A DNA stretch of 64,000 bases from assembly GCA_030823955.1 (NCBI GenBank), contig JAVBYO010000011.1, forward strand, positions 1 through 64,000, given 5' to 3'. The position numbers were made by a program, and so were the translations under genes. Origin of the DNA: Gallionellaceae bacterium (GTDB lineage Bacteria; Pseudomonadota; Gammaproteobacteria; Burkholderiales; Gallionellaceae). The notes below the pieces were generated by a model. That model did no database searches, had not been told where the DNA came from, and saw nothing but the letters and a program-made list of their open reading frames with translations. Each line of letters begins with the position of its first letter. Within the stretch, counting starts at the first letter, position 1. This document shows, piece by piece, positions 2,330 to 17,069 of the stretch.

Positions 2330-4216
2330 TTAATGTCCGTTTTCGCCGAGCAACTCTTTGATATCCAGAATCAATACGATCTCGCCTTCACTCGACATGG
2401 TGACACCCGCAACGCCTTTGGGACGGAAGGTATCCAGCGATTTGATCACCACATCGTCGTGGCCGGCGAAGCCGTCTGCCGAAAGGATGAAGCTCTGGTT
2501 GCCGACTTGCATCAGCACGCCGACCTCGGATTTGCCGGATTCCTCCCAGCCGATCAATTTTGCCAGTGACTTCACGGGCAACACTTCGCCGCGCACCACC
2601 ATGGTCGGACGGCCGGAGATGAGCTGCTGTTCTTCCGGGGTGACCGACATGATCTCGCGCACCATCGACAGCGGCACGGCGAACGGCTGGTCGCTGAGGC
2701 GCAACAGCAGTACCGGCAAGATGGCCAGTGTCAGTGGCAGCGAGATGGTGAAGGTGGAACCTTTGCCCGGTTCGGAATCGATGGTGATGGTGCCGTTCAG
2801 CTTGGAGATGTTGGTCTTCACCACATCCATGCCGACGCCGCGCCCCGAGACGCTGGAGATCTCGTCCTTGGTGGAGAAGCCCGGCAGGAAGATGAGGTTC
2901 AGGCTGGCGGATTCGTCCAGAGCGCTTGCAGCCTCCAGCGTGATCAGGCCTTTCTCGATGGCTTTGCTGCGGATCACTTCCGGACGCATACCCTTGCCGT
3001 CATCCGAGATGCTGATGAGGATATGGTCACCTTCCTGACGCGCGCCGAGATACACCATGCTCTTGACTGGTTTGCCAGCGGCGGAACGTTGCTCGGCGGT
3101 TTCCACGCCGTGGTCGACCGCGTTGCGCACCAAGTGCACCAGCGGGTCGTTCAAGTCCTCGATCATGGTCTTGTCGATCTCGGTCTCTTCGCCGGACAGA
3201 ACCAGCTCGACATCTTTGCCGAGTTGACGGGCCAGATCGCGAGCCAGACGGGGGTATTTCTTGAACAGGCGGCCGATGGGCTGCATGCGTGTGTTCATCA
3301 CCGCGTTCTGCAGGCTGACCACCAGCATGTCGAGCTGACTGACCGATTCGTCCAATGATTTCAGTATGTCGGCATTCACGCGACCTTGCAGGATGTCGCT
3401 GCGCAGATGGGTCAGGCGGTTCTTGGTCAGGCCGATCTCGCCGGACAGATTGAGCACTTGGTCGAGACGGTCGGTATCGACGCGGATGGTATTGTCTTTG
3501 GCTACGGGTTCGGCTTCGCGCCGGCTGGCGGACGGTACGCTGCGACCGGGGACATCGTCGCCCCGGCGACCGAAGGCGCTTTGTTTGAGCTTCTCTTCAT
3601 CGATCTGCGCCGCAGTGAGCTCGGGTGCAGGGGCGGCAGAAGCGACCGGTGCGACTGTTGTGGTCGGCGTAGTCGGTGCGGCAGCGCCGCCCACGATGGT
3701 TTGGTACAGCGCATTCCAATCCGGGCCGTTCTGCGCGGCAGTTTGTAATGCTGCGGAGACTGCCGGAGCGGCTGCTGCTGCGGCAGGCTCCGCCGTTTTG
3801 GTCGGGCCGTTCAGCGAGACCGCTTTGCCTTCCAGTGCGGCGGCCAGTGCATCCAGTATCGGTTGCGGCGCGCGCTGTGGTTGCGCGCTTCTGCTCAGGT
3901 CGTTGAACATCAGGCGAACTTCACCGGTCGCCGCGAGAATGACGTCCAGCAAGCCGGGATTGAGCTGCAACTGCTCGTTGCGCAACTTGTCGAACAGATT
4001 CTCGGTCAGGTGGCACAGAGTCACCAGTTCCGTCGCGTTCAGAAAGCCCGCACCACCTTTGATGGTGTGGAAGCCGCGAAAGATCACGTTGAGAGTGTTC
4101 TTGTCGTTCGGTGTTTTCTCCAGCTCCATCAGCTTGCTGTCCACATCGGCCAGCAGGTCGGATGCCTCCAGAAGAAAATCCTGCAACAATTCTTCCATGC
4201 CTGTGAAGTCGTTCAT
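2330..4216 (-). CDS. cheA: Chemotaxis histidine kinase CheA, complete copy
   Basis: A full-length CheA of 628 aa. The N-terminal Hpt domain has the phosphoryl-accepting His50 in FHTIKGGAGFLN. A long Ala/Pro/Thr-rich linker (about 130-215) follows, with no clear CheY-binding P2 domain. Then come the dimerisation helices, the ATPase domain with the N-box VHLVRNAVDHGVE and the G-box DDGKGMRP, and a C-terminal CheW-like domain ending at LLGENGH. It phosphorylates CheY and CheV when coupled to receptors through CheW. A GGAG ribosome site precedes the ATG. It lies directly after cheZ, with a 134-bp gap containing a small GC hairpin (around 4248-4268). With the partial gene at 1-495 the cluster carries two cheA genes. 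Confidence 0.96.
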   Translation of the reverse strand: MNDFTGMEELLQDFLLEASDLLADVDSKLMELEKTPNDKNTLNVIFRGFHTIKGGAGFLNATELVTLCHLTENLFDKLRNEQLQLNPGLLDVILAATGEVRLMFNDLSRSAQPQRAPQPILDALAAALEGKAVSLNGPTKTAEPAAAAAAPAVSAALQTAAQNGPDWNALYQTIVGGAAAPTTPTTTVAPVASAAPAPELTAAQIDEEKLKQSAFGRRGDDVPGRSVPSASRREAEPVAKDNTIRVDTDRLDQVLNLSGEIGLTKNRLTHLRSDILQGRVNADILKSLDESVSQLDMLVVSLQNAVMNTRMQPIGRLFKKYPRLARDLARQLGKDVELVLSGEETEIDKTMIEDLNDPLVHLVRNAVDHGVETAEQRSAAGKPVKSMVYLGARQEGDHILISISDDGKGMRPEVIRSKAIEKGLITLEAASALDESASLNLIFLPGFSTKDEISSVSGRGVGMDVVKTNISKLNGTITIDSEPGKGSTFTISLPLTLAILPVLLLRLSDQPFAVPLSMVREIMSVTPEEQQLISGRPTMVVRGEVLPVKSLAKLIGWEESGKSEVGVLMQVGNQSFILSADGFAGHDDVVIKSLDTFRPKGVAGVTMSSEGEIVLILDIKELLGENGH

Positions 4217-4350: not shown

Positions 4351-5079
4351 TCAGAAACCCAGACTTTCCAATAGGTCGTCGACTTGCTTCTGGCTGGTCA
4401 CCACGTCGGTGCGCCCTTGGCTGTTGATGACCGGGCCGTTCAGCAGGCCGGAATCGATCTTCACCGAAGGCGGCGCGTTCTCGATCAGCAGGGATACCAG
4501 TTGCTGTTCCATGTTCTGCGTAACCTCGATGATCTTCTTGATGACTTGACCAGTCAGATCCTGGAAGTCCTGCGCCATCATGATCTCGGTCAGTTGGGCA
4601 TTGGTCGCTTTGGTCTGTTTCGGCACTTCCACCAGATAGGCGTGGGTGCGTGTCGCCAGTTGTTTGAACTGCTCGGCATCCAGTTTCTGATCGAACAGTT
4701 TCTGCCATTCGCCGGAAAGATATTTGGCCTCGCTTTCGATCTTTTCGACCACGGGCTGGGCGGCTTCCGTGGCGTTCAATACGCGCTCGGCCGCCTGTTG
4801 CGTCATGGTCGCGATGTAGTTAAGGCGATCACGCGCGTCCGGAATGGCGTTCGCCGCTTTTTCCAGGTTCTTGTCATAGCCGAGTTCACGCAGACTGTCG
4901 TGCAAGGCACGTGTCATGTGGCCGATCTTGTTGATCACTTCTGTCGGGGCGGCCGGTGTGTCGCCTGTGGCCGCAACGGGAGTGGCGGATTTTGCGGACG
5001 GGATCTCGGTGTCGCTGGCGGAGACTATGCTGTCGAACAGCGCTTCCAGATCGTCAGAATCATTATTGGCTTGTGTCAT
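4351..5079 (-). CDS. cheZ: Protein phosphatase CheZ
   Basis: A 242-aa CheZ that dephosphorylates CheY-P. It has the long helical hairpin of the family and the catalytic motif DFQDLTGQ; Asp174 and Gln178 (counted from the chosen ATG) correspond to Asp143 and Gln147 of E. coli CheZ. The C-terminal tail VDDLLESLGF is the CheY-binding amphipathic helix. I chose ATG 5079, with GAGAG about seven bases upstream. A GTG at 5091 that overlaps the cheY stop is possible but has no spaced ribosome site. It lies immediately downstream of the E. coli-type cheY, the usual cheY-cheZ pairing. Confidence 0.95.
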   Translation of the reverse strand: MTQANNDSDDLEALFDSIVSASDTEIPSAKSATPVAATGDTPAAPTEVINKIGHMTRALHDSLRELGYDKNLEKAANAIPDARDRLNYIATMTQQAAERVLNATEAAQPVVEKIESEAKYLSGEWQKLFDQKLDAEQFKQLATRTHAYLVEVPKQTKATNAQLTEIMMAQDFQDLTGQVIKKIIEVTQNMEQQLVSLLIENAPPSVKIDSGLLNGPVINSQGRTDVVTSQKQVDDLLESLGF

Positions 5080-5087
5080 GGCATCTC

Positions 5088-5480
5088 TCACTTCTGCATA
5101 GTTAGAAATATTTTCTTCAGCTTCTCATCCAGTGTGGCCGCCGTGAACGGCTTGACCACGTAGCCGGAAGCACCTGCTTGAGCGGCCTCGATGATGTTCT
5201 CGCGCTTGGCTTCCGCCGTGACCATCAACACCGGCAGATGTTTGAGGGCGGCATCACCACGGATGTTGCGCAACAGGTCTATGCCGGTCATGTTCGGCAT
5301 GTTCCAGTCCGAGACCACGAACTCAAAGTTGCCTTCGCCGCGCAATTTGTTAAGTGCATCCACACCGTCTTCGGCCTCGTGTACATTGGCGAAGCCCAGC
5401 TCCTTGAGCAGGTTGCGCACGATCCTCCGCATCGTCGAGAAGTCGTCCACCACCAGAATCTTCATGTTTGGGTCAGCCAC
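5088..5480 (-). CDS. cheY: Chemotaxis response regulator CheY
   Basis: A 130-aa receiver very close in sequence to enterobacterial CheY, with the run [16 protein letters not shown]. Asp12 and Asp13, the phospho-acceptor Asp58 ([11 protein letters not shown]), the Thr of MVTAEA and the Lys of YVVKPF are all present. Phospho-CheY binds FliM to change motor rotation. The start is a GTG with a strong AGGAGG site five to six bases upstream; an internal ATG at 5465 is less likely because the N-terminus MADPNMK matches the family. cheZ follows directly, and cheV lies upstream beyond repeat copy B. Confidence 0.97.
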
Positions 5481-5600: not shown

Positions 5601-6548
5601 TTACAACAGCGGCCTCAATGTTTCGGCCAGCATGATTCCGTCGAATTTGGGTACGTAATAATCCACGCCCACCCGTTTGCCCATGGACCGGTTCGCTTCC
5701 GACGACAGCGATGAGTGCATCACCACCGGAATGTTGTCGAAACGCCGGTCAGACTTGATGTGCTGGGTGAGTACATAACCGTCCATCTCCGGCATCTCCG
5801 CATCCACCAGGATCACCTGGATCTGATGGTGCAGATCGAGTCCCGAATTGCCGGCCGATTCGGCCAAGCCTTGCAGCCGTTGCCAGCCTTCGAGTCCGTT
5901 ATGCGCCTGCACATGTTTCACGCCCATCTTGTCTAACAGTTCCGCTATTTTCTTACGGGCGACCGCGGAGTCATCCACGAAAAAGACGGACTTTTCATGG
6001 CCTCCTTCGACTTTCTCCACCGAGCCGACCACATCTTCACCGAAGGCGCTGGCCATGATCTGCTCGACATCGAGAATGGAAACGAGACTGCCATTGGCGA
6101 GTTCGGTGATGGCGGTGATCAGGTGCGAGTTCCCGCTCACCATGCCTTCGGCGGCGCGGACCTTGTTCCAATCCACACGGATGATGCGATCCACATCGCG
6201 CACCAGAAAGCCCAGCACATGGCGGCTGTATTCCGCCACCATCATCACGTGTTGTTCGTCCGGATTGCCCAGTCCCATGAATCGGGACAGGTTCAGAACC
6301 GGCATCACGTGGCCGCGCAGGCTGACTATGCCGTCCACGCCGTGTGGCATGTTCGGGGTCTTGGTGATGCGCACGCCACGGGTGACTTCTTTTACCTTGA
6401 ACACATTGATGCCGAACACTTCGTTCGAGCCGATGGAGAACAACAGGATCTCCATCTTGTTGGAGCCGGCCAGATTGGTGCGCGCATCGACCGAGTCGAG
6501 CAAGCCACCATCTTCATTGTGGTTCGATGTTAATTCTGTGAATGACAT
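5601..6548 (-). CDS. cheV: Chemotaxis coupling protein CheV (CheW domain plus receiver)
   Basis: A 315-aa CheV. A CheW-like domain (about 25-170, beginning MEILLFSIGSNEVFGINVFK, with the IVSLRGHVMPVLNLS core) is fused to a receiver domain (about 185-315). The receiver has FFVDDSAVAR, the phospho-acceptor Asp in LVDAEMPEMDG, and a Lys near the end (YVPKFDG). CheV couples receptors to CheA and may adapt signalling through its own phosphorylation. An AGGAG ribosome site precedes the ATG. It lies just 13 bp downstream of a second, related cheV, pointing to a tandem duplication followed by divergence. Confidence 0.94.
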   Translation of the reverse strand: MSFTELTSNHNEDGGLLDSVDARTNLAGSNKMEILLFSIGSNEVFGINVFKVKEVTRGVRITKTPNMPHGVDGIVSLRGHVMPVLNLSRFMGLGNPDEQHVMMVAEYSRHVLGFLVRDVDRIIRVDWNKVRAAEGMVSGNSHLITAITELANGSLVSILDVEQIMASAFGEDVVGSVEKVEGGHEKSVFFVDDSAVARKKIAELLDKMGVKHVQAHNGLEGWQRLQGLAESAGNSGLDLHHQIQVILVDAEMPEMDGYVLTQHIKSDRRFDNIPVVMHSSLSSEANRSMGKRVGVDYYVPKFDGIMLAETLRPLL

Positions 6549-6561
6549 GATCGGCTCCTAA

Positions 6562-7506
6562 TCAAGTAAGCAGACGGGCAAGTGTCTGCGCCAGTTTCTG
6601 TGGTTCGAACTTCGGTACGTATTCGTCGACGCCGACCGCTTTGCCGAGTTGCATGTTCGAATCGCTGGACAAAGAGGAGTGCATCAGTACTGGGATCTTG
6701 GAGAAACGCTTGTCTTCCTTGATCTTGCGGGTCAGCATGTAACCGTCCATCTCCGGCATCTCCACATCGGTGAGGATGACCTGGATCATGTCGGTGACCG
6801 GGATGTGCGAAGCGTCGGCATAGTCGGCGATCTTCTTCAGTTCCATCCAGGCGCGGCTGCCGTTGACGGCAGAAATGTATTTCACATTCATCGCATCCAG
6901 TGTCTTTTCGATCTGTTTGCGTGCCACGGACGAGTCGTCGGCGAAGAACACGGTGCGATTGGCGATATTGAGCGGCTGTACACTCTTGGCGATCAGGTCG
7001 TCGTCGCCGAAATGGCCGGTCTCGGACAATACTTTTTCCACGTCCATCATCATCACCAGGCGCTTGTCCGGCAGCTCGGTGACAGCCGTGACCAGACCGC
7101 CGGTCTGGGAGTTGAGCATCTCCGGCGGGACACGCATCGAGGACCAGTCCAGGCGCAGGATGGTGTCGACCGCTTCGACCAGAAAGCCCTGGGTATGGCC
7201 GTTATATTCGGTCACGATCATGATGCTGGGCTTCAGGTCGGTCTGTACGCCGACATATTTGGCAAGGTCGATGACCGGCACCAGTGCGCCGCGCAGGCTC
7301 ACCATGCCTTCCACCGCGTTGGGCATGTCGGGTGACTGGGTGATCTCCGGCACCCGCATCACTTCGCGCACCTTGAACACGTTGATGCCATAGGTCTCGC
7401 GCCGCTTGCTGCGCAGATCCAGGCCCAGCGTGAACATCAGAATCTCAAGCTTGTTGTTCCCCGCCAGCTTGGTACGCGCATCGATATTTCTCAATAAATC
7501 GGACAT
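6562..7506 (-). CDS. cheV: Chemotaxis coupling protein CheV, second copy
   Basis: A 314-aa CheV paralogue with the same CheW-receiver layout as its neighbour at 5601-6548. It has KLEILMFTLG in the CheW domain, MVSLRGALVPVIDLAKYVG, FFADDSSVARKQIE at the receiver start, the phospho-acceptor Asp in LTDVEMPEMDG and YVPKFEP near the end. It carries a short insertion (DLRSKRRETYG) in the first CheW strand region that the neighbour lacks. Of two adjacent ATGs I chose 7506, because AAGGAGG is only two bases from the ATG at 7509 but five from this one. Confidence 0.93.
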   Translation of the reverse strand: MSDLLRNIDARTKLAGNNKLEILMFTLGLDLRSKRRETYGINVFKVREVMRVPEITQSPDMPNAVEGMVSLRGALVPVIDLAKYVGVQTDLKPSIMIVTEYNGHTQGFLVEAVDTILRLDWSSMRVPPEMLNSQTGGLVTAVTELPDKRLVMMMDVEKVLSETGHFGDDDLIAKSVQPLNIANRTVFFADDSSVARKQIEKTLDAMNVKYISAVNGSRAWMELKKIADYADASHIPVTDMIQVILTDVEMPEMDGYMLTRKIKEDKRFSKIPVLMHSSLSSDSNMQLGKAVGVDEYVPKFEPQKLAQTLARLLT

Positions 7507-7524
7507 CATGCCCTCCTTCTAATT

Positions 7525-7626: not shown

Positions 7627-9750
7627 TCAAATCTTGAAGCGTTCAGAAGACAGTCTCAATTGGTGAGACAGTGCTTCCAGCATCACGATACTTTCACGGG
7701 TGTTCGCCACCGCGGCATAGTTTTTTTCCGCCATCTGGGCGATACCCTCGATGTGGTTGGCGATCATGTCGGTCGCCACTTTTTGCTCCTGCACGGCATG
7801 GACGATGTCGCCCACACCCGTGGTAGCACGCTCCACCGCGTCGCCAGCCTGCAACATCAGGCTGGACACCTGCTGTACGTTCTTCTGCGTCGCCTGGATG
7901 GAATGCACGCCTTGCTCGATGGTTTTCTCCACTTGGCCGGACTGGGTGTCCAGTTCGCGCGTGATGCGGTCGATCTCGTTGGCCGATTGTGCGGACTTTT
8001 CCGCCAATTTACGCACCTCATCCGCCACCACGGCAAAGCCGCGTCCCTGTTCGCCGGCGCGTGCCGCTTCGATGGCCGCGTTCAGGGCCAGCAGGTTGGT
8101 CTGGTCGGCGATGTCCTTGACCTGTTGCGTCATGCCGGTGATGGTGTGGGCGCGCTCGATGAACTCATGCACCGACTGTTCCACCTGGCGCATCACTTGC
8201 TCGATACTGTTGATTTCGGCCACCATGGCATCGGCATTACGGTTGCCTTCGCGTGTCAGGTCGGCACTTTCTTTGGCCTGACGTCCCACCTCGGCGGCAT
8301 TGTCCGCCACCATACCGATACTGACGGTGACTTCCTCGACTGCCGCTGCGGTCGAAGCAGCCGACTCGTTCTGCGCTTGCGAACTCTGGTTCACTTCGTC
8401 GGCCGAGCCGGCCAGCATCTTGGCGGCAGTCTGCATCTCGATCGAGCCGTGTTTGACATCGTATATGCTGGCACCGACGTTGATCATCAACTGGTCGAAC
8501 GCTTTGGATATCTCGGCGATCTCGTCGCGGCCTTTTGTCGCGGGTGCGCGCAGTGTCAGATCGCCGTTCGCCACTGCTTGGGCCATGACATCACGCAGAT
8601 CGCGAGCGGTCCTGGTTACATTGCGGATCAGACGCTGGCTGTAGACCAGCATGATGGCCATGCTGGCGATGATGGAGATGAACAGCAGCAGTGTCGAATG
8701 TTCGGTCTCCTCCGAGATCTGTTTGGAGGCATTCTGGATGCTCATATATTCATGTTCTGCCAGTGCCTGAGTCTTTGCTGTCAGCTCATCCATCAGCGGA
8801 TTCACTTTCTTCAACAGCAGTCGTTCGGCTTCCTCATAACGGCCATCACCCAAGGCGGCACGAGTCGGCAGCGCGGCTTCGTCGCGATAGGTCGCGATGG
8901 CGGTCTGTAATGCGGCAAGGCGTTGTTTGCCCGCCTCGGAACGTACACCTTTGCTGTAATCATCGAGATGATCCTGCACGTCGCCTAGATTGCGATCGAT
9001 CGCTTCCAGATGTCTGCTGATGCCATGGTCGTGCATCGCGGCCACGCGTCCTTCCGGGTCATGCTGCAACGCCAACAGGATCTGGGTGCGGGTGTTGCTG
9101 GCGTGTTCACTGATCTTGTAGACATCCACGGCCAGTGGGACGCGCCGGGTGGCGACATCGGCGAATGCCTCGTCGGCATGTTTCAATGCCAGATAACCTT
9201 GTCCGCCATCGAATACCAGTGCCGTCAACAACACACCGAAGGCCAGCCATAGGCGCGGCCCCAGACGTTCCGGAATAAATCTTGTCCACCAGCGGCGGGG
9301 TTTACGCGCCTGGCCTTTATGGATCTCAAGATTGCCCTGGCGGCCTTCGCGGAATTTGCGGTACAAGGCTTCGGCGGCCTCGACGGCAGCCCGAGCCGGT
9401 TTGGTGCGTACCGAGACATAGCCTACGCATTGGCCGTTTTCCATAATCGGGCTGGCATCCGCCACGACCCAATAATAACTGCCGTCCTTGCGGCGGTTCT
9501 TGACCAGGCCGTGCCAGGGTTCCCCGCCCTTCAGTGTGGCCCACAGGTCGGCGAAGGCTTCCACCGGCATATCGGGATGGCGCAGGATGTTGTGCGGCTG
9601 CCCCATGATCTCCTCCAGCGAAAAACCGCTGGCGGTGATGAAGTCTTTGTTGCAGAACGTGATGATGCCGCGTGTATCGGTGCGTGACACGATGAACACG
9701 CCATCCGGCAACTGGTACTCGACGTTGCTTACGGGTTGATTGTTTCTCAC
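7627..9750 (-). CDS. aer: Aer-type aerotaxis receptor with PAS, periplasmic 4HB-like, HAMP and signalling domains
   Basis: A 707-aa chemoreceptor. The N-terminal PAS domain (about 10-120) is strikingly like E. coli Aer, with [13 protein letters not shown] and [19 protein letters not shown]; these include the Arg, His, Asp and Trp positions implicated in FAD binding there. Unlike E. coli Aer, two membrane segments (about 170-190 and 353-371) enclose a four-helix-bundle-type periplasmic domain. A HAMP domain and a signalling domain with [20 protein letters not shown] follow. The start is a GTG with AGGAG eight bases upstream. It should sense redox or energy state through flavin and possibly a periplasmic ligand as well. 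The FAD assignment is by homology. Confidence 0.9.
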
Positions 9751-9800: not shown

Positions 9801-11423
9801 CTACACTTTGAACTTGCTCACCGCAGCCTGCAGGTCGCGTGCCAATTCGCCCAGCTGTACGATGCCCTGTTCCGACTGGGCGATGGCGGCATGGTTCTCT
9901 TCGGCCATCTGCGCGATGCTTTCGACGTGGCGGGCGATCTCGTTGCTGGCGAGACTCTGCTCGGCCACCGAGGAGGCGATATCACTCACTCCGGCGCTGG
10001 ATCTTTCCACGGCATTGCCGGCTTCTTCCAATACGGAGGAGACTTCATCCACATGACGCTGGGTCGATTGCAGGGAACGCAGGCCGTCCTGTACCGATTT
10101 CTCGACCGAGGTCGATTGCTGTTCCAGCGATTGGGTGATGCGGTCGATCTCGCCCGCGGACTGGGCGGATTTTTCGGCCAGTTTGCGCACTTCATCCGCC
10201 ACCACGGCAAAGCCGCGTCCCTGTTCGCCGGCACGTGCCGCTTCGATGGCCGCGTTCAGGGCCAGCAGGTTGGTCTGGTCGGCAATGTCTTTGACCTGTT
10301 GCGTCATACTGGCGATAGTGCGTGCGCTGGTGATGAACTCGTTGACCGAGCTGGCGATCTGGTTGACGGTGGTCTCGACTTGGCTCACATCTTTGATCAT
10401 CTCGCCGGTGCTTTGATTGCCGGCACGGGTCTTTTCCAGACTTTGGTCGGAGAGCTTGCGCACTTCATTCGTGTTCGAGGATACCGAGGTGATGCTGACG
10501 GTCATTTCTTCCACGGCTGCCGCGGTCGATGCGGCCGCTTCACTTTGTGCCTGTGAGCCCTGGGTGATCTGGGTGGAGGAGGTTGATAGCTGGGTGGCCG
10601 TATCGATCACACTGTCCGCGCTGCGGTGGACATGGTCAATGACCTTGCGGAAACTATCCAGCAGCGAGTTGTAAGCGAGTGCAGACTGGGCGATCTCATC
10701 CGTGCCGTGTACCGGGACGCGGCGGGTAAGGTCGCCATCGCTTGCGGTACGGGTCATCGCTTCGCGCATGTCGCCGGTGGAGCGCGATATACCGGCAATG
10801 ATGGAATAACCCAGAGCGCCACCCAGTGCCGCTCCGGCCAACATCAGCGTGATCGAGATCATACGCATACTTTTATAGCTGGCATCTGCCTCATCGTGGG
10901 TTTCCTTGGCCTCGGTCGTCTGCATCTCGATCAGGGCGTCCAGGGCTTCTTTCATCGGACCGTACAGCGGGCGGAGATGTTGCACTTGGATGCGTTTGAC
11001 TTCGTCGAGATTGCCGGCCTGCATCGCGGCTTCTGCGGGTTTCAGGCCCTCTTCCACGAAGCGCTTGCGCGCGGCGGCGAATTTATCCACCAGGATCTTG
11101 TCGTTCTCGGTCAGCGGTGTGCTCAGATAGCTGTCCCATATTTTCTGGATGGCGGCTCGATTCTCTTCGATCTCCTTGAGGTCCTCGGCGATGTGTTCCG
11201 GCTGTATCACCGCATTGGCTACGGCAAGACGGTTGCGCAGATTTTTGCTGGCGATGTCGCCCAACTGTGCCGTCGGAATCAGGTTGTGTTCATACATGTC
11301 GGCCATCCCGGCGTCGGCGTGGCTGGTGGCATACATGCCCAAGCCGCCGATCAGGATGGATAGCGCCAGCAGCAACACGACCAGCATGATCAGGCGCATT
11401 TTGATTGTCAGATTACCCAGCAT
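9801..11423 (-). CDS. Methyl-accepting chemotaxis protein with four-helix-bundle sensor
   Basis: A 540-aa receptor. The first membrane segment is near residues 8-28. The periplasmic part (about 30-185) is helical, with the [14 protein letters not shown] signature seen in 4HB_MCP sensors. The second membrane segment is near 188-210. Next are a HAMP domain ([13 protein letters not shown]) and a signalling domain with the highly conserved [20 protein letters not shown] tip. I chose ATG 11423 because AGGAG lies seven bases upstream; the ATG two codons earlier is only one base from it. No CheR/CheB-tethering pentapeptide is seen at the C-terminus, which ends SKFKV. The ligand is unknown. Confidence 0.93.
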
Positions 11424-11645
11424 CGTCATTCTCCTATTCTTTATTTGGATGAGGTATGGAGCTCCTTACCTCATGCCTTGCCACAGTTACTTCACTATCC
11501 GTCACCGGCTTTGGGGCCGGAGATGTATCCGTTGTCGCTACTCGGCGTTTGTCCTGTATCGACTTTAATCCAGTCGAGTCGTTGTTTATCAGTCAAACAA
11601 CTGCCGCTTTCTCCATCATTTCATTTTGCGGCACGACTGGCCGGG

Positions 11646-13268
11646 TCAGACCTTAAAGCGCCCGACGCTTTCTTTTAATGCCGCCGCCAGTTGTTCCATC
11701 TCTTGTACGGATTGCACGGTCTGTTGCACGGCGGCATTGTTGCCTTCGGCCATGCTGGCGATATTCTCCACGTTGCGGGCGATCTCCTGACTGGCCAGTT
11801 TTTGTTCGTTCACCGAGGTGGTGATGTTGTCCACACCGGCATTGACTCCGGTCACGGATGCGTTGGCCTGTACCAATACACTGGCGACACTGTCGATGTG
11901 GACCTGGCTGGAGCGCAGGGATTGCAGGCCGCTCTGGACGCTACGTTCGACCTGTTCGCTCTGTTCTTCCAGTGCCTTGGTCACCACGTCGATCTGGCTG
12001 GCCGATTGCGCCGATTTTTCCGCCAATTTGCGCACTTCGTCCGCGACCACGGCAAAGCCGCGACCCTGTTCACCGGCACGGGCCGCTTCGATGGCGGCGT
12101 TCAAGGCCAGCAGGTTGGTCTGCTCGGCGATGTCGCGCACCTGTTGCGTCATGCTGGTGATGCTTTGCGAACTCTTGACGAATGCTTCTACCGACTCGGC
12201 CATCTGGGTGACTGCCGTCTCCACGCGGTTGATCTCGCCTATCATCTGTTGCAAGTTCTGCTGTCCGCTGTTGGCGCGGGCCAGGCTGTCCTGCGAAAGA
12301 TGGGCCACTTCATTGGTGGCGTCGGCGACCGAGGCGATACTGACGCTCATTTCTTCGACCGCACTGGCGGTACTGGCTGCTGCGTCACTTTGATGTTGTG
12401 AATTGTCGGCGACCTGACGGGCATTGGCGGAAAGTTGTCCTGCCGAATTGCCGACCCGGTCGGCATGGGCATGCACTTCGCGTACGATCTGCTGAAAGTT
12501 ATCCACCAGCGCATTGAATGCACCGGCGATACGCCCGATCTCGTCGCCGCTGCTCACGGGGGCGCGCTTGGAAAGATCGCCATGCGCCTTGATGAGTAGT
12601 ATGGTTTGCTCCAGTTGGTGGGCCGGCTCAGTGACGTTGCGTATCAATGCACCGATGAAGAAGAACAGCAGCACTTGCAGGCCGAGTTGCCCGCCCCATA
12701 AAACGGCATTCAGTTTGTCGAGGGCCTGTTTTTCCTGTTCCAGATTGACGGTCAGGCTGACCGCGCCGGTTACGGTGCCTTCGGGCACCACGTGGCATTG
12801 CAGGCAGTTGGTGCCGTGGAAGTTTTGTCCTGCGGGAATGGGGACAACGACACGCACACTGTGGCTATCGTCATTGCGGAAGCGCGTCTGTACCGTATTG
12901 CTGCTGATGGCAGCCTGATCCAGTTCGTCACTTTTGTTTTCTTCCTCCAAGCCTGCACCAAAAGACTCGATGGTCGATTTGGAGCGGACCAGATGAAAAT
13001 CCTGCACGCCGTCCTGGGTGTTCATTTTTTTCAGGAAAGTGGCGCGCGTCGCCGCATCACTGATACTGCCGTTCAGCATCATGCCGTTGAGTGCCAGGAA
13101 CGATTGCATGGCGCTGCTCTGGGCATTCTGCGCCGCGCTAAGTACCATACGCTGCTCGAACTGCGCCATCACCCACATCTGCGCGCAGGTGAGCACCGCC
13201 AGCAACGCCAGTTGCGTGGGGATTTGCAGTTTGTTGCGTAACGCGAGTCCGTGCCACCATGTCTTCAT
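11646..13268 (-). CDS. Methyl-accepting chemotaxis protein with periplasmic c-type haem site (copy 1)
   Basis: A 540-aa receptor. Membrane segment one lies at about 15-35, and a periplasmic sensor of about 160 residues follows. The sensor contains [11 protein letters not shown]: Cys155, Cys158 and His159 form a CxxCH c-type haem attachment site, in a domain resembling the DUF3365/Tll0287-like haem sensor family. Membrane segment two is at about 190-210, then HAMP and a signalling domain with [21 protein letters not shown] clear AAGGAG site precedes the ATG. It is a tandem paralogue of the receptor at 13343-14968. By family analogy it senses periplasmic redox state or a haem ligand. Cytochrome c maturation proteins would be needed and are not in this window. 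Confidence 0.9.
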
Positions 13269-13342
13269 TTTGTTGCTCCTTTCGGGTTCCCGATCAGGCC
13301 GGACGGTTCTCCCGCCCGACTCCGTCAGCCCGGATCGATTGC

Positions 13343-14968
13343 TTACACCTTGAAGTGTTCGACGCTCTTTTTCAGTTGTTCCGCCACCTGTTCCATCATG
13401 CTCACGGCCTGTACTGCCCCCTGTACCGAGGTGTAGTTCGCTTCGGCCATATGGGCGATGTTTTCGACGTTGCGCGAGATGTCCTGACTGGCGCGTTTCT
13501 GTTCGTTGACGGATACGGTGATGTCATCCACGCCGGCGTTGACACTGGTGACAGCCTGATTGGCCTGTACCAGGACGATGGCGACTTCTTCCATGTGTTT
13601 CTGGCTGCTTTGCAACGATTGCAGGCCGCTTTGCACATTGCGCTCTACCTGTTCGCTCTGGTCGCCCAGTGTCTTGGTGACCACGTCGATCTGACTGGCG
13701 GACTGGGCCGATTTTTCGGCCAGTTTGCGCACTTCATCCGCTACCACGGCAAAACCGCGCCCCTGTTCGCCGGCACGGGCCGCTTCGATGGCGGCGTTCA
13801 AAGCCAGCAGGTTGGTCTGTTCGGCGATGTCGCGTACCTGTTGCGTCATGCTGGTGATGGTTTGGGTGCTCTTGACGAAGGCGCTCACCGACTCGGCCAT
13901 CATGCGTACGGCGGTCTCCACTTGTGCGATTTCGCCCATCATCTCATTCAGGCTGGTTTGTCCCTTGTTGGCGCGCTCCATGCTTTCGGTGGAAAGGCTG
14001 GCGACCTGAGTGGCATTGTCGGCGACGGAAGCGATGCTGACGCTCATTTCTTCGACCGCGCTGGCAGTATTGGCTGCCGCATCACTTTGACGCTGGGAGC
14101 CGCTGACGATGTCAGCCGTGTCGGAAGCCAATGCGTGGGCGGAAGTGACTACCTGCTCGGCATAACCATGCATCTGTCCGACGATAGTCTGAAAATTCTT
14201 TGCCAGTTCATTGAAAGCCATGCCGGTCTGTCCGATCTCATCCGAGCTGCGGATCGGCACACGTTTGGTCAGGTCGCCATCGGCATGCATCTTGAGCATG
14301 GTCTGTTGCAGCTCTTTGGTGGGATAGGTGACGCGATCAATGATCCACCCGATCATGAAGAACAGGAAGATCTGTAGCAGTATCTGCCCGCCCCATAGCC
14401 AGAGACTGGCCTGGCTCATCAGGGCATATTCTTCCTGCAGGTTAAGTGTGACGCTGGCCGCGCCGTTGACGGTGCCTTCCGGCACGATATGGCATTGCAG
14501 ACAGTCGGTGCCGCGAAAATCCTTCTTGGCGATGAACGGAACGACGACACGCAAAACGTCTTTGCCGTCTTCATGGCTGAGTCGGCTTTGCTCCGTTCCG
14601 GAGTTGAGGGCGGCTTTGTCCAGTTCGTCGGTGGGCTGCTCTTCGGGTAAACCCGGGCCGAACTGATCCTGCACGGCTTTGCCGCGGATGACGCGCAATT
14701 CGACCACCTTTTCGGTAGAGCCCATTTTTTTGACGTAGAGCTTGCGTTGATCGACGTCACTGATGAGTCCATTGAGCATCAGCATGTTCAAGCCGTTGAC
14801 CACCCCGTCAGCCGTGACTTTGGCCTTTTGTTGCGCCTCAAGCAGGATGCGGTTCTCGAACTGGTCGAATGCCCAGCGTTGGGTAGACACCATGATGATT
14901 ACCAGAACGAGCTGGATGGGGATCTGCAGCTTGTTTTTTAGAGACAGTGAACGCCACCAGTTATTCAT
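13343..14968 (-). CDS. Methyl-accepting chemotaxis protein with periplasmic c-type haem site (copy 2)
   Basis: A 541-aa receptor with the same architecture as its neighbour: membrane segments near 15-33 and 192-212 around a periplasmic sensor with [11 protein letters not shown]. Cys156, Cys159 and His160 are the CxxCH haem site. HAMP ([13 protein letters not shown]) and a signalling domain follow. The two paralogues align over the whole sensor (MLNGLISD versus [15 protein letters not shown] versus DELDQAA), showing duplication. The start is ATG 14968 with AAAGGGG upstream; a TTG five codons earlier is unlikely. It is the first gene after the sigma-28 promoter at 15023-15049 and heads the receptor run. 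Confidence 0.9.
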
Positions 14969-15174: not shown

Positions 15175-16179
15175 CTAGTGTGCGGCGGGGACGGCGAGCG
15201 GTGCTGCGGTATCCGGTGTGGCGGACGCGGCTGTGGCGGATACTCCGCTTGCCCCCGGTATCTTTTGCCCGATTTCGGTCTCGGCATCCAGCTCCACCTG
15301 GCCTCCGTCATGTTGTGCCGCCAATTCGGCTTCTTTGTTCATCACGATGATGCTGATGCGGCGATTGATCGGATTGAACGGGTCGGTCTTGTCGAATAAC
15401 ACCGCAGAGGACATGCCGACTACGCGCACGACCTTGCTTTCATCCATGCCGCCAGCAATCAATTCGCGCCGCGAGGAGTTCGCCCGATCAGACGAAAGAT
15501 CCCAGTTGCTGAGGCCTCTTCTGTCCGAGGAATAGGGCCGCGCATCGGTGTGTCCGCTCAGGCTGACTTTGTTGGGCATCTCATTCATGGTCTTGCCGAT
15601 CTCATGCAGGATGTCCTTGGTATAAGGCTCGAGTTCAGAGCGGCCGATCTTGAACATGGGGCGGTTTTTTTCGTCCACGATCTGGATGCGCAGGCCTTCG
15701 GTGGTGATGTCCAGCAGGATCTGGTTCTTGAACGGCTTGAGTTTCTCGTTGTTGTCGATGGCTTTTTCGATGTTCTTCTTCAGCTCTTTGAGCTTGTCCA
15801 GCTCCTTCATTCGTTCCAAGCGCACCAACTCTTCAGTCGCCGCTTTGAGCGTGATCATTTTCTTTTCAGCGGGGATTTCGCCGTTTTTTACCTGGCCGGC
15901 GGATTTGCTGAGGTCGTTGCCGCCCCCCTTGATGATACTGGAAGCATCCCCGCTGCCGTCCCCGCCCATCATGGCGACTTTGAGCGGGGTCTTGAAGTAT
16001 TCCGAGATGCCGTTCAGGTCACCTTTGGTGGTGGAACCCAGCAGCCACATCAGCAGGAAGAAGGCCATCATCGCGGTGACGAAGTCGGCATAGGCGATCT
16101 TCCATGCGCCGCCGTGTGCCCCTCCGGTCACCTTCTTGATGCGCTTGATGACGATCGGTCGTTTTTCTTCAGTCGACAT
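15175..16179 (-). CDS. motB: Flagellar stator protein MotB
   Basis: A 334-aa stator subunit. A single membrane segment carries the proton-binding Asp in AYADFVTAMMAFFLLMWLLG. A periplasmic plug/linker and a C-terminal OmpA-like peptidoglycan-binding domain follow, with LSGHTDARPY and NWDLSSDRANSSRREL. The tail is Ala/Thr-rich. With MotA it forms the ion channel that turns the rotor. MotA is immediately upstream (stop at 16215). It is a distinct stator from the MotC/MotD pair at 54696-56329. The 206-bp gap downstream of it holds the sigma-28 promoter of the next gene and a short hairpin (15104-15118). Confidence 0.96.
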   Translation of the reverse strand: MSTEEKRPIVIKRIKKVTGGAHGGAWKIAYADFVTAMMAFFLLMWLLGSTTKGDLNGISEYFKTPLKVAMMGGDGSGDASSIIKGGGNDLSKSAGQVKNGEIPAEKKMITLKAATEELVRLERMKELDKLKELKKNIEKAIDNNEKLKPFKNQILLDITTEGLRIQIVDEKNRPMFKIGRSELEPYTKDILHEIGKTMNEMPNKVSLSGHTDARPYSSDRRGLSNWDLSSDRANSSRRELIAGGMDESKVVRVVGMSSAVLFDKTDPFNPINRRISIIVMNKEAELAAQHDGGQVELDAETEIGQKIPGASGVSATAASATPDTAAPLAVPAAH

Positions 16180-16214: not shown

Positions 16215-17069
16215 TCAGCGTTTTTGTTTGACGTGATCTTCCAATTCGGTGAAGCCCGGGCGCTCGGCCGAGGTCAGCACCTTGCGACCGAATTCGACTG
16301 CCATCGCCGGTGCATAGCCATTCAGATTGGCGAGCAACGTCACTTTGATGGTCTGGAACATCTTGGTGGATTCTTCGGCTTTTTGTTCGAGCAGGGTTCC
16401 CAGTGGCCCAACGAAACCGTAGGCCAGCAAGATACCCAGGAAGGTACCCACCAGTGCGTGGGCGATCAAGATGCCCAGCTCTGCGGGCGGGAGGCCGACC
16501 GATTCCATGGTGTGCACCACCCCCATAACTGCTGCGACGATACCGAATGCGGGCATGCCGTCGCCGAGTTTTGCGACGATGTGCGCCGGCATCAGGGCTT
16601 CGTGATGATGGGTTTCGATCTCAACGTCCATCAGGTTCTCGATCTCCATGGCGTTGAGGTTACCGCTCACCATGATGCGCAGGTAGTCTGTAATGAACTC
16701 CACCACATGGTGGTCGGAGAGTATCTTGGGGTATTTGGCGAAGATCGGGCTTTCTTCCGGTCTCTCAACATCGCCCTCGATGGACATGAGGCCTTCTTTG
16801 CGCACTTTGCCCAGTAATTCGTAGAGCAGCGCCATCAGTTCCATGTAGCTGTCTTTACTGTATTTGGAGCCTTTGAGGACGGTGGGCAGGGCCTTTAACG
16901 TGGCTTTGATGGCCTTGCCGCTATTGCCGACCAAGAACGCGCCGACGGCGGCACCACCGATCATGAGCAGTTCTACCGGCTGGAATAACGCTGCCATGTG
17001 TCCACCGGCCAAGGCAAAGCCGCCAAAGACGCTGGCGGACACAATGATGTATCCAAGAATCACGAACAT
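16215..17069 (-). CDS. motA: Flagellar motor stator protein MotA
   Basis: A 284-aa polytopic membrane protein of the proton-type MotA family, with four membrane segments. The large cytoplasmic loop (about 60-160) has the family signatures ERPEESPIFAKYP and the GDGMPAFGIVAAVMGVVHTM block. The last two segments carry the conserved channel residues (LVGTFLGILLAYGFVGPLG). It forms the stator ring with MotB, just downstream. The start ATG has GGAG about ten bases upstream. Upstream is a 405-bp gap before pabB. Confidence 0.96.
   Translation of the reverse strand: MFVILGYIIVSASVFGGFALAGGHMAALFQPVELLMIGGAAVGAFLVGNSGKAIKATLKALPTVLKGSKYSKDSYMELMALLYELLGKVRKEGLMSIEGDVERPEESPIFAKYPKILSDHHVVEFITDYLRIMVSGNLNAMEIENLMDVEIETHHHEALMPAHIVAKLGDGMPAFGIVAAVMGVVHTMESVGLPPAELGILIAHALVGTFLGILLAYGFVGPLGTLLEQKAEESTKMFQTIKVTLLANLNGYAPAMAVEFGRKVLTSAERPGFTELEDHVKQKR

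Follow-up and report, generated by a model that had tools for sequence, protein, structure and literature searches.

Tandem chemoreceptors with predicted periplasmic haem-c Cache sensors beside the motor genes of a Gallionellaceae iron oxidiser

The stretch of DNA analysed here (the window) comprises 64,000 nucleotides of a contig from a Gallionellaceae bacterium, and all of the window features described below are on its minus strand. As read along that strand, motA (16215..17069; Pfam MotA_N and MotA_ExbB) and motB (15175..16179; Pfam MotB_plug and OmpA) precede two receptor genes, P0002 (13343..14968; 541 aa) and P0001 (11646..13268; 540 aa), which we describe as haem-c Cache chemoreceptors 1 and 2, respectively; motB is 206 bp upstream of P0002. 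These are followed by a third MCP of the array with a 4-helix-bundle sensor (9801..11429) and a fourth MCP with a cytoplasmic PAS domain and a 4-helix-bundle sensor (7627..9750), both of which have no haem motif, and then by two CheV-like genes with CheW and receiver domains (5601..7509), cheZ (4351..5091), cheA (2330..4216), and a further MCP-domain protein. The open reading frames and tandem order of the two MCPs reported in the initial annotation were reproduced at these coordinates. Its betaproteobacterial host is a Gallionellaceae iron oxidiser, and this family consists mostly of iron-oxidising betaproteobacteria (PMC10734462). The gap between P0002 and P0001 is 74 bp, and a promoter and terminator scan near the pair returned nothing above shuffled sequences, so it is the gap by itself that points to co-transcription.

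The two receptors have the same architecture, in which a membrane segment, the sensor domain, a second membrane segment, a HAMP domain, and an MCP signalling domain follow one another; the HAMP and MCPsignal domains of both proteins were matched by Pfam. The membrane segments are located by hydropathy at approximately residues 9-34 and 187-215 of P0002 and 16-38 and 186-213 of P0001. The sensor domains span residues 36-186 of P0002 (14411..14863) and 36-181 of P0001 (12726..13163), and each contains one CLQCH sequence, the predicted haem-c attachment motif, at residues 156-160 (14489..14503) and 155-159 (12792..12806), respectively. The residues named previously, i.e., Cys156/Cys159/His160 of P0002 and Cys155/Cys158/His159 of P0001, are as found here, and hydropathy agrees that the motif lies in a periplasmic domain, in the loop between the two membrane segments. 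In both proteins, a periplasmic CxxCH between two transmembrane helices is therefore followed by HAMP and MCP domains. With the local amino-acid composition, approximately 3e-5 CxxCH motifs would be expected by chance per 155-aa domain.

The description of the two genes as tandem paralogues holds in that they are adjacent and share 45.5% identity in the sensors and 71.7% in the signalling halves. A simple recent tandem duplication was considered and rejected: although the signalling halves of P0001 and P0002 fall together in their tree (support 81), the sensor tree does not pair them, and the P0001 sensors group with the sensor of the SpoIIE protein described below (SH-aLRT 93). Judged from these sequences, the pair looks mosaic in its history, and with many forks weak we claim no firm order of events. 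The signalling halves of the second-position haem MCPs of other genera are found in a different clade, so the tandem arrangement may have arisen repeatedly. Among 38 loci of the family, which were picked by similarity to P0002 and are therefore not an unbiased sample, a P0002 orthologue follows motAB in 31, and a second haem-motif MCP is directly next in 15. In many relatives, a PAS/haem-c Cache MCP with a CTxCH motif occupies the place that matches the PAS/4-helix-bundle MCP at 7627-9750 (minus strand) of the window, apparently through a swap of the sensor.

The AlphaFold models of the sensor domains have pLDDT values of 88.6 (P0002) and 84.9 (P0001), and the top Foldseek match of both is 3b42, the sensor of GSU0935 from Geobacter sulfurreducens (E = 2.3e-8 and 1.9e-6, respectively). 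Identity with the Geobacter domains in the structural alignment is low (16-24%), and the global RMSD of the models to 3b42 is large (13.7-16.7 Å), probably because the GSU crystals are domain-swapped dimers (PMC3460858). In VIA-align, the P0002 model aligned with Tll0287 (5b82) with a Z-score of 9.7 (122 residues, 3.9 Å), below WalK (Z-score = 13.1), as would be expected for a Cache fold. In the P0002 model, a strand at model positions 101-111, a short CLQC-bearing helix at 121-124, and a strand at 132-141 correspond to strand 3, the motif helix, and strand 4; the P0001 model has the same order of elements, with a helix of only about three residues. A short CxxCH helix between strands 3 and 4 is the defining element of sCache_heme (PMC12889525) and is present in both models. 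On this basis, the modelled sensor fold is the recently described sCache_heme (Cache) fold rather than PAS. The kinship with Geobacter haem-PAS sensors that had been suggested is thus retained through 3b42, whereas the assignment to PAS is not. The profile search proposed earlier was similarly divided. The DUF3365/Tll0287 profile PF11845 was not matched (P0002, 14.5 bits against a cut-off of 24.1; P0001, no match), and the Geobacter GSU0582-type profile PF21563 (Mcp40H-20_sensor) recognises P0002 only, barely over the cut-off (27.4 against 27.0 bits, with 13.0 bits for P0001). Two designed repeat proteins that outscored 3b47 in a sensor-profile search of the PDB were discarded, as they match residues 73-109 only, with repeat units of 1-8 bits.

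Conservation was assessed across Gallionellaceae and further families of the class, in a set of 154 distinct homologous domains. The two cysteines and the histidine of CxxCH are intact in all 140 distinct domains that cover the site; the loss of the motif in homologues, which the initial annotation had named as an argument against haem, was thus looked for and not seen. The proposed distal haem ligand, Met64 (14777..14779 in P0002 and 13077..13079 in P0001), has an equivalent Met in 139 of the 139 distinct domains that cover both the CxxCH and the Met site. Across the nine sensor domains of this type in the own genome, the invariant columns are N, M, G, R, R, G, G, R, P, CxxCH, and G. In the alignment of P0002 with 3b47, Met64 falls on chain position 26, which, with the published haem ligand His143 at chain position 109, identifies it with Met60 of GSU0582. 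GSU0935 also has, by alignment, a Met at the position matching Met64 of P0002, and Met60/His144 is the low-spin haem ligation observed in that protein (PMC8396549).

The maturation genes, for which a check had been advised, are present: ccmA, B, C, E, F, G, and I were recognised by NCBIfam in the own genome as a ccm operon (System I). Between ccmG and ccmI lies a gene whose match to an NrfF/CcmH-type family is below the cut-off, and ResB (System II) was searched for in the same genome and not found. A third haem-c MCP (PAS-Cache-MCP, CLSCH; G000:C36, L136:4011-6137, minus strand) begins 56 bp past ccmI (L136:6194-7444, minus strand), on the same strand at the end of the ccm operon. The order of ccmI and this MCP is kept in all four testable genomes of the genus (the own genome, G114, G116, and G117), a count that leaves out a further orthologue located at a contig start, where adjacency is not visible. 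This gene order connects the receptor family with the attachment of haem c, and the chemoreceptor is possibly co-transcribed with the cytochrome c maturation genes. The earlier interpretation of CxxCH as a covalent c-haem site is supported by the unbroken motif, the conserved Met, the 3b42 match, and the ccm operon, and we infer that haem is very probably attached covalently to P0001 and P0002 in vivo.

In the reading that we favour, with a probability of roughly 60%, P0001 and P0002 are membrane chemoreceptors with a periplasmic haem-c Cache domain, which steer the cell by redox (or NO) through a switch at Met64. One covalent c-type haem would be attached to CLQCH in each periplasmic Cache domain by Ccm System I, with the motif His as one iron ligand and Met64, on the first helix, as the other in the reduced state. 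Met64 would be displaced when the iron is oxidised or when it binds NO or a similar diatomic, and its release would shift the first helix against the rest of the domain, which would be transmitted through TM2 to HAMP and on to the CheA, CheV, CheZ, and MotAB proteins encoded alongside, so that cells would steer along redox (or NO) gradients. The two diverged sensors may provide a wider span of potentials. Since the same Met is conserved, a switch of the GSU type is the most economical mechanism here; in GSU0582 and GSU0935, the ligand change is linked to redox, with Met bound when reduced and released when oxidised (PMC8396549).

Redox is probably the main stimulus of such a switch. The same haem-c Cache receptor could instead respond to NO, or another diatomic, and not to the ambient redox potential, which we consider rather unlikely. 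GSU0582 and GSU0935 bind NO and CO (PMC8396549), and a signalling-linked sCache_heme protein of P. azotoformans was described in a 2026 study as an NO sensor with slow NO release and no stable O2 complex (PMC12889525). NO reductases and nirK/nirS have a scattered distribution in Gallionellaceae (PMC10734462), although NirS (Cytochrom_D1) was not found in the own genome at 85% completeness, which is weak evidence against self-made NO. A redox-switch mechanism was proposed for the GSU proteins, and their reported potentials (-156 and -251 mV for GSU0582 and GSU0935, approximately 95 mV apart; PMC8396549) also speak against NO as the stimulus. Direct O2 sensing, in which the haem would bind O2 and the receptors would mediate aerotaxis as such, would suit a microaerophilic family and has a parallel in DcrA, a haem-c MCP that is described in citing papers as a proposed sensor of O2 or redox; it is nevertheless improbable, as a stable oxy complex is formed by neither of the sCache_heme proteins studied (PMC12889525) and O2 would face competition from the proposed Met ligand. 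The match of the general Cache fold to many ligand-binding domains (WalK, CitA, and DcuS) might suggest that the sensors are ordinary domains of that kind, with CLQCH as a disulfide or as the site of a different metal, but this is hardly tenable given the invariant C, C, and H (140/140), the conserved distal Met, the crystallised haem-c domain as top match, Ccm System I, and the ccmI-adjacent paralogue.

P0001 and P0002 are two of about ten haem-c sensors in the own genome (2.25 Mb, 85% complete), and most of these are missed by PF11845. The P0001/P0002-type domain occurs in nine copies, linked to MCP (five), PAS-GGDEF (two), PAS-GGDEF-EAL (one), and SpoIIE plus ATPase domain (one) outputs; a PF11845-type domain is found in a tenth sensor (GGDEF-EAL) and in one stand-alone protein. 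At E 0.001, none of 105 relatives match PF11845 (0/81 in the family and 0/24 others), and PF21563 matches 27 of the 81 family relatives and none of the 24 others. As PF11845 misses a whole subfamily, surveys that use it alone probably underestimate how widely periplasmic haem sensors occur.

Three proteins of the genome are described further here. A SpoIIE-type phosphatase with an ATPase domain and a haem-c Cache sensor (L060:1357-3453, plus strand; G000:C25) represents a non-taxis output. The stand-alone Tll0287-like protein (PF11845; L001:1501-1938, plus strand; G000:C24:62717-63154) carries CVSCH, and another frame of the same stretch also has a small protein with CVSCH. Among the haem-c Cache MCPs of the genome, the most diverged (L063:1324-3027, plus strand; G000:C7) has a CMQCH motif and a very long branch.

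The domain was matched in 65 of 94 good Gallionellaceae genomes with the single P0002 sequence as the query and in 60 of 363 genomes of a class-wide sample, mostly in one or two copies each, with a profile, and the two counts are to be read with this difference of query in mind. In genus g12 (19 genomes, G095-G113), the profile found the domain in no good genome, though most of them have MCPs. Most g12 genomes encode one to three copies of a Nitrotoga-NxrA-like protein, and the genus is probably Candidatus Nitrotoga (an inferred name), a motile, nitrite-oxidising sister genus. The domain was also not found in genomes G001-G003 of genus g2, which have 12-22 MCPs, so its absence is not unique to g12.

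Sideroxydans ES-1 and Gallionella ES-2 are microaerophilic iron oxidisers of this family that form bands in opposed O2/Fe(II) gradients, and specific chemotaxis assays had not yet been done for these two strains when they were compared in 2013 (PMC3770913). We suggest tentatively that an expanded network of some ten haem-c Cache sensors, in which the Met switch is conserved, serves the iron oxidisers of Gallionellaceae as a redox sense that would hold cells at the Fe(II)/O2 interface. Its outputs would be the flagella (beside motAB/che), c-di-GMP turnover, and a SpoIIE-type phosphatase. The suggestion draws on the retention of the network by iron oxidisers and its likely absence from the probable nitrite oxidisers of genus g12. 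P0001 and P0002, which adjoin the motor genes, are concrete candidates for this gradient-positioning sense, and Met64 makes the proposal testable.

Haem-c chemoreceptors were already known from Geobacter and Desulfovibrio. GSU0582 and GSU0935 (3b47 and 3b42; PF21563), which include the first Foldseek match, resemble P0001 and P0002 in their MCP architecture, the single CxxCH in a periplasmic PAS/Cache-like domain, the conserved distal Met, and the occurrence of two paralogues in one genome, whereas identity is 16-24%, P0001 and most relatives are under the PF21563 cut-off or threshold, and the present receptors form a tandem pair beside motAB in a Gallionellaceae iron oxidiser. The sCache_heme/DUF3365/Tll0287-like group (PF11845) shares the Cache fold, the short CxxCH helix between strands 3 and 4, and fusion to signalling outputs, but its profile does not detect the 105 relatives, and Tll0287 has an axial Cys, whereas Met occupies the GSU distal-ligand position in the P0001/P0002 group. 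DcrA of Desulfovibrio vulgaris is alike in being a haem-c MCP, as far as descriptions in citations allow the comparison. Haem MCPs of Gallionellaceae were tabulated in a 2023 pangenome study, which listed the monohaem sensory clusters 152, 40, and 400 without analysis and found one-CxxCH MCPs, PAS-MCPs, and diguanylate cyclases in 54, 43, and 36 of 87 iron-oxidiser genomes, respectively (PMC10734462); matched by description and not by sequence, these clusters are probably the same proteins as the set described here. This study adds how large the set is and how varied its outputs are, the conservation of the distal Met, the motAB and ccmI neighbourhoods, the failure of PF11845 to detect the set, and the observation that one sister genus probably lacks it.
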